Of a stretch of DNA of 64,000 bases, positions 8,170 through 14,534 are shown piece after piece; position 1 is the first letter of the stretch, and every line of letters starts with the position of its first letter. The stretch spans positions 124,001 to 188,000 of the forward strand of contig JAJNNC010000005.1 in assembly GCA_021730635.1 (NCBI GenBank), read 5' to 3'. Both the position numbers and the translations under genes were made by a program. This stretch comes from Catalimonadaceae bacterium JC749 (GTDB lineage Bacteria > Bacteroidota > Bacteroidia > Cytophagales > Cyclobacteriaceae). Under the pieces are notes generated by a model. It did not search any database. It had not been told where the DNA came from and saw only the letters and a list, made by a program, of their open reading frames with translations.

Positions 8170-9051
8170 TTATACGTTAACGTGCCTTTCCGCATGATAA
8201 GAAGACCGAACCAGAGGCCCCGATTCTACATATTTTATGCCTCTTTTTAAGCCCTCTTCTCTATATTGAGCAAACATGTCGGGATGAATAAATTCTGCAA
8301 CAGCGATATGCATTTTTGTTGGTTGCAGGTATTGGCCTAACGTCAGAACATCCAAGCCATGCGCCACCAGATCGTCCATCGCTTTATAGACTTCTTCCGG
8401 TTTTTCCCCCAGCCCTAACATAATGCCTGATTTAGTGCGTTTACCAAATTCTTTGGTACGTTTAATTTGTTCCAGGCTTCGTTGATATTTAGCCTGCGGA
8501 CGCACTCGCCGGTATAGTGTCTCTACGGTTTCCATATTGTGGGAAACTACTTCCTGTCCGGCACTAATCATGCGATAGAGCGCTTCCCAATTTCCTTTCA
8601 CATCTGGAATTAAGGTTTCGATAGTGGTATCCGGACAAAGTTCTTTGGTTTGTGCCACTGTCTGATACCAAATCTCTGCACCCCGATCTTTCAACTCATC
8701 CCGGTTCACAGAAGTGATAACAGCGTGTTTTACTCCCATTAGTTTAATAGCTTCAGCCACTCTTTGTGGTTCCTCTGTATCATATTCTGGAGGGCGGCCT
8801 GTAGCTACAGCACAAAAAGTACAGCTTCGGGTACACACATTCCCCAGAATCATAAAAGTTGCCGTACCTCTGCCCCAGCATTCGCCCATATTAGGACAGT
8901 TACCACTTTCGCAGATGGTATGCAATTTATATTGATCTACCAGTTGTCTTACACGGGCATATTCTTTCCCTACCGGTAATTTGACACGAAGCCAATCAGG
9001 TTTTCTGGTTCGTTGGGTAGTATTTTCAGAAATTACAGGTAATTCAATCAT
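8170..9051 (-). CDS. lipA: Lipoyl synthase
   Basis: 293 residues, the usual size. Radical-SAM enzyme that inserts two sulfurs into octanoyl groups on lipoyl domains of the 2-oxoacid dehydrogenases and glycine cleavage H protein. Both iron-sulfur cluster motifs are present: the auxiliary cluster [12 protein letters not shown] (Cys47, 52, 58) and the radical-SAM CTRSCTFC (Cys73, 77, 80). The C-terminal [10 protein letters not shown] carries the conserved Ser that ligates the auxiliary cluster. Cytosolic. It has its own terminator; the 84-bp gap to the next upstream minus-strand gene could hold a promoter, or the two could be cotranscribed. Confidence 0.97.
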
Positions 9052-9135
9052 GATATATTATGTTAGCTAAAAGAATAACAATGAGACTTTCCTCAAAATT
9101 CCGGGCTAATCTAAGTAAACTTTTTGAAAGGATCG

Positions 9136-9882
9136 TTACTTGCGGTATCCGTAAAATAACATGATAAAGGCGGAAGGGTAGATGCTGCGATTGATGGCAG
9201 AGGGTACCATTTCAATTTTATTAGGGAAAGCCTCCAACTGAAATCCTGCTTCAAATCCGGTAACATCGTTTTTGAAGGTGCCAAATTCAAAAGATAGGGA
9301 AGCCTTGATGTTAGCTCCGATTTGGAGGTTTGACTGACCGATGCCTCTCAGAAAAGGGCCTGAACCAATAATGCGATTGGTTTCTGTATGAACATCGGGG
9401 TCATAAGCTACAATAGACGTACGGCTGGCACTTTCGGCGTATTGGATATAGTAGGGCATTACCACACCCAGAGTAGGACCTCCTGCCAGTATCGCATTTA
9501 CTTGGACACCTTGTTGAGGGGCTTTTTTGAATACCAGCCATTCACGCCCATATTCTGGTCTGATAGAGAACAGGTAATTGGTTTTTCCTAAGATAAAGGT
9601 ATTACCACTGATACGAGAGACCCGACGGAGCTCTTTAGGGTGTTTTACGTTGACAATTTCCAAACCGAAGGTCTGAAACTGCCGATCTCCTATTCTTTTC
9701 CCAAACTTTCCTGCCAGCCCTGCAATCAGCCCGGAGTTAGTGTTTTTGCTCACTCCCCAGGTAAATTCACGGTTATATTCATAAAGATCTTTTTCTTGCG
9801 CATAGACCTGAAGAGTCAAGATGCTACAGAGAAAGACCAATCCTATGAACCAAAATATTTTTTTGTTATTTTCCACACTCAT
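9136..9882 (-). CDS. Predicted outer-membrane beta-barrel protein, unknown function
   Basis: 248 residues from the ATG at 9882 (MSVENNKK). An ATG eight codons upstream is possible but places charged sequence in front of a signal peptide that is already complete: IFWFIGLVFLCSILTLQVYAQ. After cleavage the chain alternates amphipathic strands (REFTWGVS, GLIAGLAGKFGKRIG, FSIRPEYGREW) and ends in FIMLFYGYRK, compatible with an outer-membrane barrel. I do not recognise a named family. It is divergent from the OsmC gene and immediately upstream of lipA on the same strand. Confidence 0.65.
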   Translation of the reverse strand: MSVENNKKIFWFIGLVFLCSILTLQVYAQEKDLYEYNREFTWGVSKNTNSGLIAGLAGKFGKRIGDRQFQTFGLEIVNVKHPKELRRVSRISGNTFILGKTNYLFSIRPEYGREWLVFKKAPQQGVQVNAILAGGPTLGVVMPYYIQYAESASRTSIVAYDPDVHTETNRIIGSGPFLRGIGQSNLQIGANIKASLSFEFGTFKNDVTGFEAGFQLEAFPNKIEMVPSAINRSIYPSAFIMLFYGYRK

Positions 9883-9932
9883 TGAATTAAAATTAAGGAA
9901 TATCAAGCTATTTGCAAAGATAAAAACGAAAT

Positions 9933-10337
9933 ATGATTACAGTAAAGTCTAACTATCTTGGAGAATTAAGAACGGAGGCTACTCATTTAAGATCATCCGA
10001 AAAGATTATTACAGATGCCCCTGTTGATAATAATGGTAAAGGAGAAGCTTTTTCTCCTACCGATCTGGTAGCAGCCTCCTTATGCAGTTGTATGATGACC
10101 ATTATAGGCATCAGAGCACAAAAACATGGAATCACATTGGAAGGATTAAAGGCAGATGTCACTAAAATTATGGCAGATAACCCCAGAAGGATTGCTAAAA
10201 TAATTGTAGAGTTCCATCTACTGTCCACAAACGCTACTCCAACACAGCGCTCTATGCTAAAAGAAGCGGCTATCACTTGTCCGGTAGCCCTTAGTCTTAA
10301 CCCTGCTATTGACCAAGAAGTTTTATTTCATTTCTAA
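9933..10337 (+). CDS. OsmC family peroxiredoxin-like protein
   Basis: 134 residues, the size of the short OsmC/YhfA-type proteins. Catalytic cysteines are in SLCSCMMTIIGI (Cys51 and Cys53) and AITCPVALSLNP (Cys116). The family reduces organic hydroperoxides using paired cysteines; YhfA-like members are less well characterised. Cytosolic. Convergent with ytxJ, itself a thiol-redox protein, so the two genes may belong to one oxidative-stress neighbourhood, though they are not cotranscribed. Confidence 0.88.
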   Translation: MITVKSNYLGELRTEATHLRSSEKIITDAPVDNNGKGEAFSPTDLVAASLCSCMMTIIGIRAQKHGITLEGLKADVTKIMADNPRRIAKIIVEFHLLSTNATPTQRSMLKEAAITCPVALSLNPAIDQEVLFHF

Positions 10338-10394
10338 CATGGAGAAAAAATATTCCCAATATTCTTCAATATAGTGTGTTGATCAACATCTTGA

Positions 10395-10422
10395 CAAAAA
10401 AAGCTGTATCAGGCAGCTTTTT
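10395..10422. terminator. Bidirectional terminator between osmC-like gene and ytxJ
   Basis: A-run, AGCTG, 7-nt loop, CAGCT, T-run: symmetrical, so it can stop transcription from both sides. It overlaps the ytxJ stop codon at 10409-10411. Confidence 0.75.
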
Positions 10423-10756
10423 CCAGTTGCTGTTTCAAGGTCTGATAGGATATGCCCATGTGAGAAGTGTGGAAGACACATTCCTCGTTTCTGATGAGCA
10501 AAAGTTGAGGCGACTCATGGCGTATATTAAATGTGGAAGCCACGGCATGGGAAAGTTCCCGGTGTTGGATTAAATCTAAAAAGTAGGCTTCTACGTCCTT
10601 CATTTCTTGTTCTATCCAACTTCTTTCCAAACGGTTGAGGGCCATGCTGCTGATGCCGCAGCGGGTACTGTGTTTAAAAATAACAACGGGTTTCTGGTTA
10701 GAAGCAACTTTGGCTTTTTCCAGATCCTTTTCTGTTTCGATAATACTCCAATTCAT
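10409..10756 (-). CDS. ytxJ: Bacillithiol-system redox protein YtxJ
   Basis: 115 residues with a thioredoxin-like fold. The motif VIFKHSTRCGISSMAL has the single active-site Cys33 of the monothiol bacilliredoxin-type YtxJ family. The C-terminal half carries the SPQLLLIRNEE strand with the expected cis-Pro. It would act on bacillithiol mixed disulfides in the cytosol, implying that this organism makes bacillithiol, as many Bacteroidota do. It ends 3 bp before the start of nothing on its own strand: the repeat protein gene lies immediately upstream with a 3-bp gap (stop at 10760, ytxJ start at 10756), so the two are probably cotranscribed. Confidence 0.88.
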   Translation of the reverse strand: MNWSIIETEKDLEKAKVASNQKPVVIFKHSTRCGISSMALNRLERSWIEQEMKDVEAYFLDLIQHRELSHAVASTFNIRHESPQLLLIRNEECVFHTSHMGISYQTLKQQLEKAA

Positions 10757-10759
10757 AAC

Positions 10760-11977
10760 TCAATAATACCAGATTTCTTTCTCTTTATTATCATATCTTG
10801 GTTTCTTACTTTTTGTTTTCAAATGTTTCGGTTGATCTTTAGATTTAAACCAACCGTGCCACTTTATTTTCCATTTACGATACTTTTCTTTCTGTTCGTA
10901 GGAGTTTTTGGTTTTACTTTTCAGATAGCTAACACTTGGATGCATGTCTTTTCCTGCCTTTCTTACCCTTAAGGCTCCATTAAATTGGTGTACTTCTCTG
11001 GAGAGCTTTTGCATGATGCGTGTTTGGTGCTTCCTGGTAGGTACTTTGACATGTCCCTGGTGAAAAGAAAAACTGTGCTCCAGCTCCTCATTTTTACGAA
11101 TTTTTATTGCTCCGGCATACATACCTACTTTTCGAGATACCTGGTTCTGGTGTCTTACCTCGTTTTTTGGAGAACGCACTTTGTACGTGACCGCTCCCTT
11201 GGCATTTCCAATCTTTTTTGAGTTGGCATTTTCTTTCATCTCTTGGATCCGGGGATGCGGCACTTTGATATGTCCCTGAAACGCTCCATGATCTTTCGCT
11301 AGTTGCTGATGACGTCGGATCTGTTTTTTTTGAGAAGCTCCTTTCATTTTCCCTTCAAAAAGTGCAGCCTTATCTGCCTTTTGCCTGGACTGTCGGGTTT
11401 TCAGATGACCTTCATAGGCATGCACATCTTTGGATAAGCTTTCAAAATCAATCTTATTTTTTTGCCGATGTCCGGCGTATTGTGTGCCTATTTTTTCGGG
11501 AGCCACCTTTTGCTTTGGCTTTAACTCCCCCTGAAAGGTAGACGGTGCCTTTTTCTTGAAAACTCTTTGCCAAAAGGTTGGACTGGCTACTTCTCCTCCC
11601 TCTTCTGCAGGAGGAGAAGTATATGTTTTTGCTTTGGAATCTTTTTCATCATGAGATTTTGACAAAGGCTGTTTGTACCTATCTTTTTTTCTGGCCGATT
11701 TTGTACGGGTGGGTGGTGGTGTATATTGGTCTTTGGCATCTTCGGAAGACGATTTGGATCGTGGTTGTCTGTAATTATCTTTTACTTTTCTACCCCTCCG
11801 ATCAGGATGAATTTTTACTGGCTTTTTGGGCTTTTTATTAACTTTAACAGTAGGAATAGCATCTTTTTGCTGAGCATAGGAATGCTGAGATCCTCCAGCC
11901 AACCAACACAGGAGGATGAAAAAGAAGAGAAATGTCAGACATGGGTTTTTCTTATGATATGTTGAAAGACACGCCAC
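10760..11977 (-). CDS. Secreted, very basic repeat protein of unknown function
   Basis: 405 residues. A signal peptide (FLFFFILLCWLAGGSQHSYA) is followed by a Lys/Arg-rich low-complexity part with alternating YRQP / YTPP / YKQP units (about 69-123). Then come about ten copies of a short motif, aromatic-x-Gly-x-hydrophobic-Lys, at roughly residues 148, 167, 188, 207, 233, 260, 287, 306, 332 and 373 (FQGELK, YEGHLK, FEGKMK, FQGHIK, YAGAIK, FNGALR). The spacing of 19-27 residues holds basic helical linkers. The C-terminus is Lys-rich and ends EIWYY. I recognise no named family. Upstream, 20 bp away, is a tiny lipoprotein gene on the same strand; downstream is ytxJ. The lipoprotein, repeat protein and ytxJ may form one transcript. 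Confidence 0.75.
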   Translation of the reverse strand: MACLSTYHKKNPCLTFLFFFILLCWLAGGSQHSYAQQKDAIPTVKVNKKPKKPVKIHPDRRGRKVKDNYRQPRSKSSSEDAKDQYTPPPTRTKSARKKDRYKQPLSKSHDEKDSKAKTYTSPPAEEGGEVASPTFWQRVFKKKAPSTFQGELKPKQKVAPEKIGTQYAGHRQKNKIDFESLSKDVHAYEGHLKTRQSRQKADKAALFEGKMKGASQKKQIRRHQQLAKDHGAFQGHIKVPHPRIQEMKENANSKKIGNAKGAVTYKVRSPKNEVRHQNQVSRKVGMYAGAIKIRKNEELEHSFSFHQGHVKVPTRKHQTRIMQKLSREVHQFNGALRVRKAGKDMHPSVSYLKSKTKNSYEQKEKYRKWKIKWHGWFKSKDQPKHLKTKSKKPRYDNKEKEIWYY

Positions 11978-11997
11978 CGCAAAACTGATTGCTAAAA

Positions 11998-12171
11998 TTA
12001 TTTCCTTACCCTTCCGTTTTTGTCAAATTTGATTTTAGGTCCCTGCCCTAGTTGGTATGAATCAGCTTTTGAGTGCTCGAAAGCAGGACAAGGCATGCTT
12101 GAACTGCGGCAGGAAGAAAAAATAACTAGCAAAAATAGGAATGACAAAAATATGTTGCATCTTTTTAGCAT
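11998..12171 (-). CDS. 57-residue lipoprotein
   Basis: A short gene read directly from the minus strand. The start at 12171 gives MLKRCNIFLSFLFLLVIF followed by SSC, a lipobox with Cys21. The mature part has CPAFEHSKADSY and ends in a basic FDKNGRVRK. The stop lies 20 bp before the start of the repeat protein, so the two are likely cotranscribed. The mature chain is only about 37 residues. I know of no function. The basic Lys/Arg tail resembles the composition of its neighbour, which hints that they work at the same site in the envelope. Confidence 0.7.
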   Translation of the reverse strand: MLKRCNIFLSFLFLLVIFSSCRSSSMPCPAFEHSKADSYQLGQGPKIKFDKNGRVRK

Positions 12172-12437
12172 AATTGAATATCATAAAGGTACCCTTTCTT
12201 TGAGCCAGAAAAGGTGCCTGATTTTACTTATACTAATATTTTATTTAATTTTATAAATATAAGGGCTGGTTCTGGCAGTTCTGAACGAATTTGATGGATA
12301 TTATTACATTCATTGGGATTCATCTTCATTTCCAGATTAATCCAACATTGCCATAGACCAGCACAGCTGCAAATTCTTCCAAAAAAAATCCGAGGTTGTT
12401 GTAATGTTTTTCTAAAAGTCTCGTCTACCTAGTTGAA

Positions 12438-12947
12438 ATGGATCTAAAGGCTTTTAAAAACAGTGTTTTTCCTATACAGGGAAAGCTTTTCCGTTTTGCC
12501 AAAACTATGCTGCAAAACGAAGAAGAAGCTGAAGATGCCGTACAGGAAGCATTTCTCAAGCTTTGGCAAAACCGGCAGAGTTTAAATACCTACCGCAGCG
12601 TAGAAGCTTTGGCTGTCATCATCACTAAAAATTTATGTCTGGACAGGTTGAAGTCAAGTCGATATAAACGTACCGTTTCGGCAGACCAAATAGACACGGA
12701 CAAGGCACAGGCTTCGCCCTATGAGAATATGGAGATGAGCGATCACGCAACGATTGTCAGACATATTATGAGCCGGCTTCCTGAACAGCAAAGGATGATC
12801 ATCCACCTCCGAGATGTTGAAGAATATTCTTTTGAAGAAATAGAAAAAATTACGGGGATGTGTCTAAACAATATACGGGTAACCTTATCCAGAGCCCGCA
12901 AAAGTGTTAGGGAAGCTTTTATGAAAATCGACGCTTATGGAAACTGA
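12438..12947 (+). CDS. ECF-type RNA polymerase sigma factor
   Basis: 169 residues. Region 2 is at about 8-75 (FRFAKTMLQNEEEAEDAVQE, then FLKLWQNR). Region 4 is at about 110-160 with LPEQQRMIIHLRDVEEYSFE followed by the helix-turn-helix MCLNNIRVTLSRARK. No ECF-type extra domains. It directs RNA polymerase to a small regulon, probably including its own operon. The next gene starts 11 bp before this stop, a translational overlap typical of sigma/anti-sigma pairs. Confidence 0.93.
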   Translation: MDLKAFKNSVFPIQGKLFRFAKTMLQNEEEAEDAVQEAFLKLWQNRQSLNTYRSVEALAVIITKNLCLDRLKSSRYKRTVSADQIDTDKAQASPYENMEMSDHATIVRHIMSRLPEQQRMIIHLRDVEEYSFEEIEKITGMCLNNIRVTLSRARKSVREAFMKIDAYGN

Positions 12948-13716
12948 TGACATCAATCGTCTGATAGAGAAGTATTTTGAAGGTGAATCCACTCTTCAGG
13001 AAGAAACTACCCTGCAATCCTATTTTCTTGAAGAAGAGGTGCCCACTACCCGGATGGCAGAAAAAGCACAATTTCAGCTTTTTTCAACAATGCGCCATGA
13101 GGTCACGCCAGATATGCTTAAACAAGAAAGCTTCTTTTCAAAAATTACGCGCCAGGAAGATGAGACACAACACAAAACTATCCGCTTCTTTCGGTGGAGT
13201 GTGGGTATTGCTGCCAGCTTCATTATTATGCTATTAGGCTTTGTGGTAGGCATGTTGTATGAAAAGAATTCTTCACCTACCTCAGAGGTTTTGGCCCTGA
13301 AGGATGAGTTTTCTCAAATGAAAAAGATGCTCATGTTTAATCAGATGAATAATCCTTCGGCCAGTGAAAGAATTATGGCTGTGAACACAGCACAAGCACT
13401 TCCTGAGGCAGATGACCAGGTTCTAGAGGCCCTCATTTTTACGATGAACTCCGATGTGAATCCTAACGTCAGGCTGTCTGCTGTGGAAGCCCTGCATCGG
13501 TTTGCCGATCAGAAGATGGTAATGACCGCCCTGGTAAAATCACTGAATACCCAGGAAAATCCTATCGTACAAATTGCCATCATCGATGTATTGGTAGATT
13601 TTAAGGAGCAGTCTGCATTAGACGAGTTGCGGAAACTGCTGCAAAAAGAAAACCTTACACAGGCAGTCAGAGAACAGGCGGAGTATGGGGTGAGCCAACT
13701 GGCTTATGAGAATTGA
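12937..13716 (+). CDS. Membrane protein with HEAT repeats, putative anti-sigma factor
   Basis: 259 residues. The N-terminal 75 residues (INRLIEKYFEGESTLQEE...) resemble the start of Bacteroidota anti-sigma proteins. A single membrane helix lies at about 87-107. The C-terminal 120 residues contain HEAT repeats, for example NPNVRLSAVEALHRFADQ and ENPIVQIAIIDVLVDF. The repeats lie on the far side of the membrane if the N-terminus is cytosolic. By position it should bind the ECF sigma factor encoded just upstream, with the HEAT part acting as the sensor or partner-binding module. That is inference: no anti-sigma motif with certainty is seen. Confidence 0.72.
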   Translation: METDDINRLIEKYFEGESTLQEETTLQSYFLEEEVPTTRMAEKAQFQLFSTMRHEVTPDMLKQESFFSKITRQEDETQHKTIRFFRWSVGIAASFIIMLLGFVVGMLYEKNSSPTSEVLALKDEFSQMKKMLMFNQMNNPSASERIMAVNTAQALPEADDQVLEALIFTMNSDVNPNVRLSAVEALHRFADQKMVMTALVKSLNTQENPIVQIAIIDVLVDFKEQSALDELRKLLQKENLTQAVREQAEYGVSQLAYEN

Positions 13717-13748
13717 CATAACATGAACCTGAAAATATGTAAACAACT

Positions 13749-14534
13749 ATGAAAGTGATTTATATCATCTTTATTTCATTAATGCTAACCAGCCTGGCCG
13801 TACAGGGACAAGTACAGGAGTTTAAAACTTCTTTCCTGGAAAAAGATGCGGAAAACAACCGCTTGGTTGTACTGATTAACTCCGGTAAACTGACGATAGA
13901 AGGTTATGATGGAGATGAAGTCATTATCCGGGCAGAAGGATATGAACCCCCTCCTGATCGTGCCAACGGACTGAAACCTATTCATGCCAAAGGTAGAGAC
14001 AACTCAGGGCTTGGATTAGTGGTGGATCAGCATGGTAATACTATACAGATTACCAAAGTAAATCATTTAGAAGCAGATTACTTCATTAAAATTCCGCAGA
14101 CCACTTCTGTAACCACTACCATTGAGCCACGTATGGACGATCTGCTGATAGAAAAAATTCAGGGAGAGGTAGAAGTAAATGCCAAAGCGAATGATGTGGT
14201 CTTGAAAGATATTAGTGGACCGGTTGTGATCAACAATGTCAGTGGAAACATTGATGTGGAATTTACCAGGGTTTCGCCCGATAAGCCTTCTTCTATCAGT
14301 GTGGTGAGTGGAGATGTAGACATTACCATGCCTTCGCAAAGTAAGGCTAGTTTCAATATGTGTACGGTCAGCGGAGAAATTTACACAGATTTTGATATTC
14401 AGCTAAACCAAAAGAGTGAAGGCAGTTTGAAGAGCATTTATCGTCGTAATCCGGTTCAGTGTACCATCAACAACGGGGGTTCTAACTTTCTGATCAACAC
14501 AGTCAGCGGCAATATCTATCTACGAAAGAAGTGA
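13749..14534 (+). CDS. DUF4097-family beta-repeat secreted protein
   Basis: 261 residues with a signal peptide (IIFISLMLTSLAVQGQ). The rest is a repetitive beta-strand protein with units such as INNVSGNIDVEF, ISVVSGDVDITMP, MCTVSGEIYTDF and INTVSGNIYLR. This is the recurrent 'VSGdi' pattern of DUF4097, a right-handed beta-helix-like domain. Function unknown; in many genomes such genes follow ECF sigma/anti-sigma pairs. It begins 32 bp after the HEAT gene and is very probably the third gene of that operon. Confidence 0.87.
   Translation: MKVIYIIFISLMLTSLAVQGQVQEFKTSFLEKDAENNRLVVLINSGKLTIEGYDGDEVIIRAEGYEPPPDRANGLKPIHAKGRDNSGLGLVVDQHGNTIQITKVNHLEADYFIKIPQTTSVTTTIEPRMDDLLIEKIQGEVEVNAKANDVVLKDISGPVVINNVSGNIDVEFTRVSPDKPSSISVVSGDVDITMPSQSKASFNMCTVSGEIYTDFDIQLNQKSEGSLKSIYRRNPVQCTINNGGSNFLINTVSGNIYLRKK

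Follow-up and report, generated by a model that had tools for sequence, protein, structure and literature searches.

A candidate periplasmic module of a basic repeat protein and a small two-cysteine lipoprotein in one order of the Bacteroidota

What might a strongly basic, exported repeat protein do together with a very small lipoprotein, and where in the cell envelope would the two proteins act? The genes that raise this question lie on the reverse strand of a 64,000-nucleotide stretch of the genome of Catalimonadaceae bacterium JC749 (the window). The lipoprotein gene (positions 11998 to 12171, ATG start) encodes a precursor of 57 aa and the repeat-protein gene (10760 to 11977, GTG start) a protein of 405 aa. 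The lipoprotein gene is upstream on the same strand and 20 nt separate the two ORFs, as described in the initial annotation of this DNA. The repeat protein begins with a Sec-type signal sequence that ends in SYAQQ, has a mature part without cysteine and finishes in ...KKPRYDNKEKEIWYY. Comparison with a homologue from the same genus over 298 codons gave a dN of 0.44 against a dS of 3.8 (saturated), which supports the reading of this ORF as a real coding sequence under purifying selection.

The mature protein carries short motifs of the form [FYW]xGx(hydrophobic)[KR]. The strict version, [FYW].G.[ILVMAFYHR][KR], occurs seven times (residues 148, 188, 207, 233, 287, 332 and 373), while shuffling the mature part 20,000 times yielded a mean of 0.15 and a maximum of 3 copies. 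Imperfect copies recognized by eye in the translation (YAGHRQK at residue 167, FHQGHVK and NAKGAVTYK) bring the total to about ten, the number that the initial annotation had given for an irregularly spaced motif in a basic background. The spacing is indeed irregular, with recurring distances of 26, 19 and 43 residues, and the net charge of +0.15 per residue is the highest among the 57 gene-like ORFs of the window. AlphaFold2 returned no usable fold (mean pLDDT 56, pTM 0.20); values near 70-85 were confined to the signal peptide and to stretches of the C-terminus, suggesting that most of the protein is a disordered chain.

Neither protein of the pair matched any library family that was searched, and the two families have no model there; the earlier statement that the repeat protein belongs to no known family therefore stands. 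The window protein had no Pfam match at E 1, and 21 members of its family gave only two single-member matches (best 0.0056), which we judged to be chance. NCBIfam gave no match, sorting domains included, at 0.01 in any of these 21 members or at 1 for the window protein. PHROGs and PADLOC contained no match for the pair, so neither a phage nor a defence assignment was made, and PDB chain sequences gave chance matches only (E 0.15 or worse). The full 405-aa protein had a single match in an Oscillospiraceae record, which was rejected as chance because the ORF there, presumably a response regulator judging from its sequence, scored nothing with the family profile. The terms used to search the literature retrieved no description of such a pair, which may be reported under other wording or in non-open papers.

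Homologues of the repeat protein were found by tblastn in 13 of 59 near genomes, the window genome included. Alignment of their C-termini covered about 112 aa, in which G, H-P, P, Y, E and W do not vary among the 13 sequences, and their middle parts consist of lineage-specific repeats. In the window this conserved region (10760 to 11098, reverse strand; family profile A3) contains a YxG pair, MHPS and the terminal PRYDxxExEIW. The C-terminal profile matched 76 of the 292 genomes of the window's order, presumably the Cytophagales (E up to 0.01), and 4 of 392 genomes in a sample of the phylum (E up to 0.001), all four from the window's own family. The proteins of families f15 and f76, barely seen by the first profile, proved homologous to the repeat protein (98.1% by hhalign).

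We read 51 repeat-protein loci. They include 40 chosen for spread from the 76 positive genomes and exclude L088 and L089, where profile matches of E 0.002-0.005 had no ORF at the cut. The proteins range from 179 to 1016 aa, and all 51 have a positive net mature charge (+14 to +163) and no mature cysteine. The YxG core was enriched over shuffled sequences in 30 members; the excess was not significant in the other 21.

The lipobox of the window's lipoprotein, FSSC at residues 18-21, is of a relaxed form, and the lipid-bearing Cys21 is followed by a second conserved cysteine (Cys28, in a CP motif) and a basic tail, FDKNGRVRK. Among the 29 lipoproteins encoded next to a repeat protein, the lipid cysteine is invariant, a second cysteine follows 5-8 residues later (mostly in CP) and the tail is basic, often of the type D-K-x-G-(L/R)-V-K-K. 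Net charge is +5 to +20 throughout this set, 27 members have exactly two cysteines and 13 end in lysine. GldB of the same genome (L199, 198-1184) also has a second cysteine five residues past its lipid cysteine.

A lipoprotein gene lies directly upstream of the repeat gene, on the same strand, in 29 of the 51 loci (4 of them recognized by profile), a proportion affected by the selection of loci, which was not random. Fifteen of the 22 loci that lack it come from the window's own family, of which 18 loci were read. A lipoprotein profile search of the 292 genomes of the order gave 84 carriers at E up to 1e-6, a cut applied to 208 genomes matching at E up to 0.05 in which the weaker matches were mostly short and N-terminal. 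Of the 76 genomes with a repeat protein, 52 also carry the lipoprotein and 24 have no strong match to it; 32 have the lipoprotein without the repeat protein. Both genes occur within 3.5 kb in 45 of the 292 genomes. The co-occurrence corresponds to a Fisher odds ratio of 12.5 when the relatedness of the genomes is ignored. The proposal that the two genes belong together is borne out by these counts. Of the two outcomes that would have spoken against the annotation, a profile match to a known family and genes never paired elsewhere, neither was obtained. Co-occurrence across the Bacteroidota, which the annotation had suggested looking for, was not supported, since the pair turned up in a single order. 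The lipoprotein had 7 matches in 247 genomes of the phylum (E up to 0.001), 5 from the order and 2 weak ones from outside it, at 6e-5 and 7e-4.

The pairing is thus common but not absolute. We examined 20 lipoprotein loci picked from genomes that had no repeat-protein match or had the two genes unlinked. In six (L142-L146 and L149) the next gene downstream encodes a diverged secreted protein that is basic, and three (L151, L153 and L155) have a short basic protein with undetectable homology. One (L150) has the lipoprotein alone within the same gene order, and the remaining ten showed none of these basic proteins next to the lipoprotein. Short basic secreted proteins of 110-157 aa in family f13 (L128, L151, L153 and L155) lie between the lipoprotein and a YtxJ gene; with an hhalign probability of 0.2% their homology is not supported, and we regard them as positional and compositional analogues only. 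In families f2, f4 and f9, two-cysteine mini-lipoproteins were also seen away from basic repeat genes (L147, L148, L152, L154, L156-L159 and L161). A poorly resolved tree of neighbouring 2-oxoacid dehydrogenase E1 proteins (38 rows) fits, but does not prove, an old pair whose adjacent lipoprotein was lost in f1.

Around the pair the recurrent gene order runs from a 2-oxoacid dehydrogenase E1 through the lipoprotein, the repeat protein and YtxJ (plus OsmC on the opposite strand) to an 8-strand barrel and LipA, where the names E1, OsmC and LipA are those we presume from sequence. E1 and YtxJ genes were each present in 30 of the 51 loci, the barrel in 25 (by sequence cluster) and LipA in 22, with some loci cut by contig ends. 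The window has no E1 gene upstream of the pair. The YtxJ/BrxC bacilliredoxin-like gene (10409 to 10756, reverse strand) lies 3 bp 3' of the repeat gene and is probably on the same transcript. Among the 30 loci that have both genes, YtxJ starts within -50 to +30 nt of the repeat gene in 25. The gene from 9136 to 9906 (reverse strand) encodes a predicted 8-strand outer-membrane barrel (mean pLDDT 88.8) that resembles OmpA, NspA and OmpX and has no Pfam model. It matched 56 of 296 genomes, and its place next to lipA is conserved across several orders of the phylum; since other orders have barrel and lipA side by side and no pair with them, we rejected it as a third obligate part. The putative lipA gene (8170 to 9051, reverse strand) marks the end of the conserved neighbourhood. 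On the other side, the 266 bp between the pair and a divergent ECF sigma factor gene (12172 to 12437, reverse strand) are the expected place of the pair's own promoter. TAnnTTTG is the Bacteroidota-type promoter motif, and a promoter of this type had no match in that region. The divergent genes (12438-14534, forward strand) encode the ECF sigma factor, a HEAT-repeat protein and a DUF4097 protein.

The stretch from 8170 to 12171 (reverse strand) has a thiol- and lipoyl-related flavour (E1, YtxJ, OsmC and LipA) that surrounds the pair in many genomes. It may be that the second lipoprotein cysteine serves in periplasmic redox chemistry or a disulfide-linked dimer, which would fit YtxJ, OsmC and the lipoyl-metabolism genes as neighbours. 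The presence of that cysteine in every adjacent lipoprotein and the close placement of YtxJ favour such a role. However, YtxJ and OsmC, whose translations were read by eye, show no obvious signal peptide and would be cytoplasmic, the cysteine-free repeat proteins could not form a disulfide with the lipoprotein, and the neighbours have housekeeping grounds for clustering. We consider a thiol role improbable. An accessory part in gliding or type 9 secretion is scarcely more credible. Carriers of the pair are Bacteroidota with gliding-type lipoproteins, and GldB matched 279 of the 292 genomes of the order, but a marker so nearly universal made the test by GldB presence uninformative. The pair is not universal and does not track GldB, and no gliding or type 9 gene was recognized among the recurrent neighbours.

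Where, then, are the two proteins located? Surface lipoproteins of the Bacteroidota bear acidic residues immediately behind the lipid cysteine (PMC5080379). As the criterion for this export signal we required two or more acidic residues in positions +2 to +6, counted from the lipid cysteine. Not one of the 29 family lipoproteins reaches two acidic residues there, whereas all 26 SusD lipoproteins of the window's own genome have two or three (30 loci were read and 4 dropped for having no lipobox by the pattern used). The species in which this signal was established are other members of the phylum, and applying it to this order relies on the SusD control. The lipoproteins GldB, BamD, GldJ-like and GldK-like, which we take to face the periplasm, have 0 or 1 acidic residues in these positions.

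The signal peptide of the repeat protein is of the ordinary kind, and no type 9 sorting domain was recognized on the protein. Its C-terminus is evidently not a general sorting signal either, because both profile matches in its own genome lie within the one 405-aa ORF. Since the lipoproteins lack the acidic signal and the repeat protein lacks a sorting domain, both proteins more likely act in the periplasm than on the surface, with these sequence features as a proxy for location. The initial annotation had instead pictured a surface-bound scaffold. A pair displayed outside the cell that binds anionic polysaccharide or DNA would account for a polycation with aromatic residues, as in adhesive and matrix proteins, and for a variable repeat number, which is frequent in surface proteins. 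The missing export signal and the lack of any type 9 sorting-domain match argue against this reading, and we regard it as unlikely.

We tentatively propose that the pair is a periplasmic module, a wall-binding polycation and an inner-leaflet lipoprotein, which holds the outer membrane to peptidoglycan. The repeat protein would be exported by Sec and remain in the periplasm as a largely disordered, multivalent polycation, in which aromatic-Gly-hydrophobic-basic 'stickers' alternate with Lys/Arg-rich linkers and the conserved C-terminal region closes the chain. This chain would lie along and bind anionic peptidoglycan, and perhaps anionic lipid too. The conserved C-terminus, the lipoprotein or both would dock it at the outer membrane, and docked chain and lipoprotein together would hold the membrane to the wall. 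The signal peptide and lipobox patterns, the charge, the motif excess, the conserved C-terminus, the pairing and the purifying selection are read from sequence; localization, wall binding, docking and tethering are what we infer from them.

Charge along the whole length, short aromatic motifs and a varying repeat number suggest multivalent binding of polyanions, a property that the pair may have as originally supposed. Peptidoglycan is the main polymer of the periplasm, and we propose it as a possible target, with lipid, LPS or a protein as alternatives; no known peptidoglycan-binding domain was found. Outer-membrane anchoring is suggested by the fixed C-terminus and the co-encoded lipoprotein. 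A chain of the lengths observed would exceed the span of the periplasm and would suit lying along a surface. Other observations fit this proposal less well. The partners can occur apart, both in genomes and in loci, the YxG excess falls short of significance in 21 of the 51 members, and the second lipoprotein cysteine is not explained by an adhesive role.

In addition, the strictly conserved PRYDxxExEIW end suggests a specific protein partner, beyond a model of pure charge. It may be that the YxGxhK motifs serve as a series of docking peptides to which a folded partner in the periplasm or outer membrane binds, for example by beta-strand addition, with the C-terminus binding the lipoprotein or another fixed partner and charge being secondary. 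The aromatic-x-Gly core is kept while the linkers vary, certain spacings recur and C-terminal residues are invariant, all of which would be expected of such a specific scaffold. However, no partner came to light, the neighbouring barrel accompanies lipA in other orders with no pair nearby, and YxG enrichment reaches significance in no more than 30 of the 51 members. We hold the specific scaffold to be a somewhat doubtful explanation.

The proposed tether between membrane and wall could also be taken further. The repeat protein could be a disordered sticker-and-spacer polycation, free to vary in repeat number from species to species, that forms a multivalent, gel- or condensate-like layer with peptidoglycan and is pinned beneath the outer membrane by the two-cysteine mini-lipoprotein, an uncatalogued glue used across the order in place of Lpp-type tethers. 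This extended version is rather unlikely. Gliding and type 9 secretion load the outer membrane with large forces, and to our knowledge the fixation of this membrane to the wall is poorly described in this phylum. A conserved, unannotated two-gene module that is probably part of the envelope, in an operon-like position, could provide a handle on how the membrane is held.

Several known systems resemble the pair in part. SusD-type surface lipoproteins (PMC5080379) are outer-membrane lipoproteins of the Bacteroidota, as the family lipoproteins are presumed to be, but they bear the acidic signal that is absent from the family (0/29 versus 26/26). Type 9 substrates share a signal peptide, variable repeats and a conserved C-terminus with the repeat protein, whose C-terminus differs in matching no sorting-domain model and in occurring in a single ORF of its own genome. 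Braun lipoprotein (Lpp) and other tethers between outer membrane and peptidoglycan share the proposed role, and Lpp is an outer-membrane lipoprotein of very small size whose end is basic, as the family lipoprotein is presumed to be. We found no sequence relation of the pair to Lpp-type tethers, and the family lipoprotein is paired with a separate secreted polycation. Because a C-terminal lysine is not general (13/29), we did not file the lipoprotein as a covalent tether of the Lpp type. Coacervating sticker-and-spacer polycations share short aromatic motifs, basic linkers and low predicted order with the repeat protein, a likeness drawn from sequence and prediction, and the repeat protein differs from them in being bacterial, exported and closed by a conserved C-terminus.
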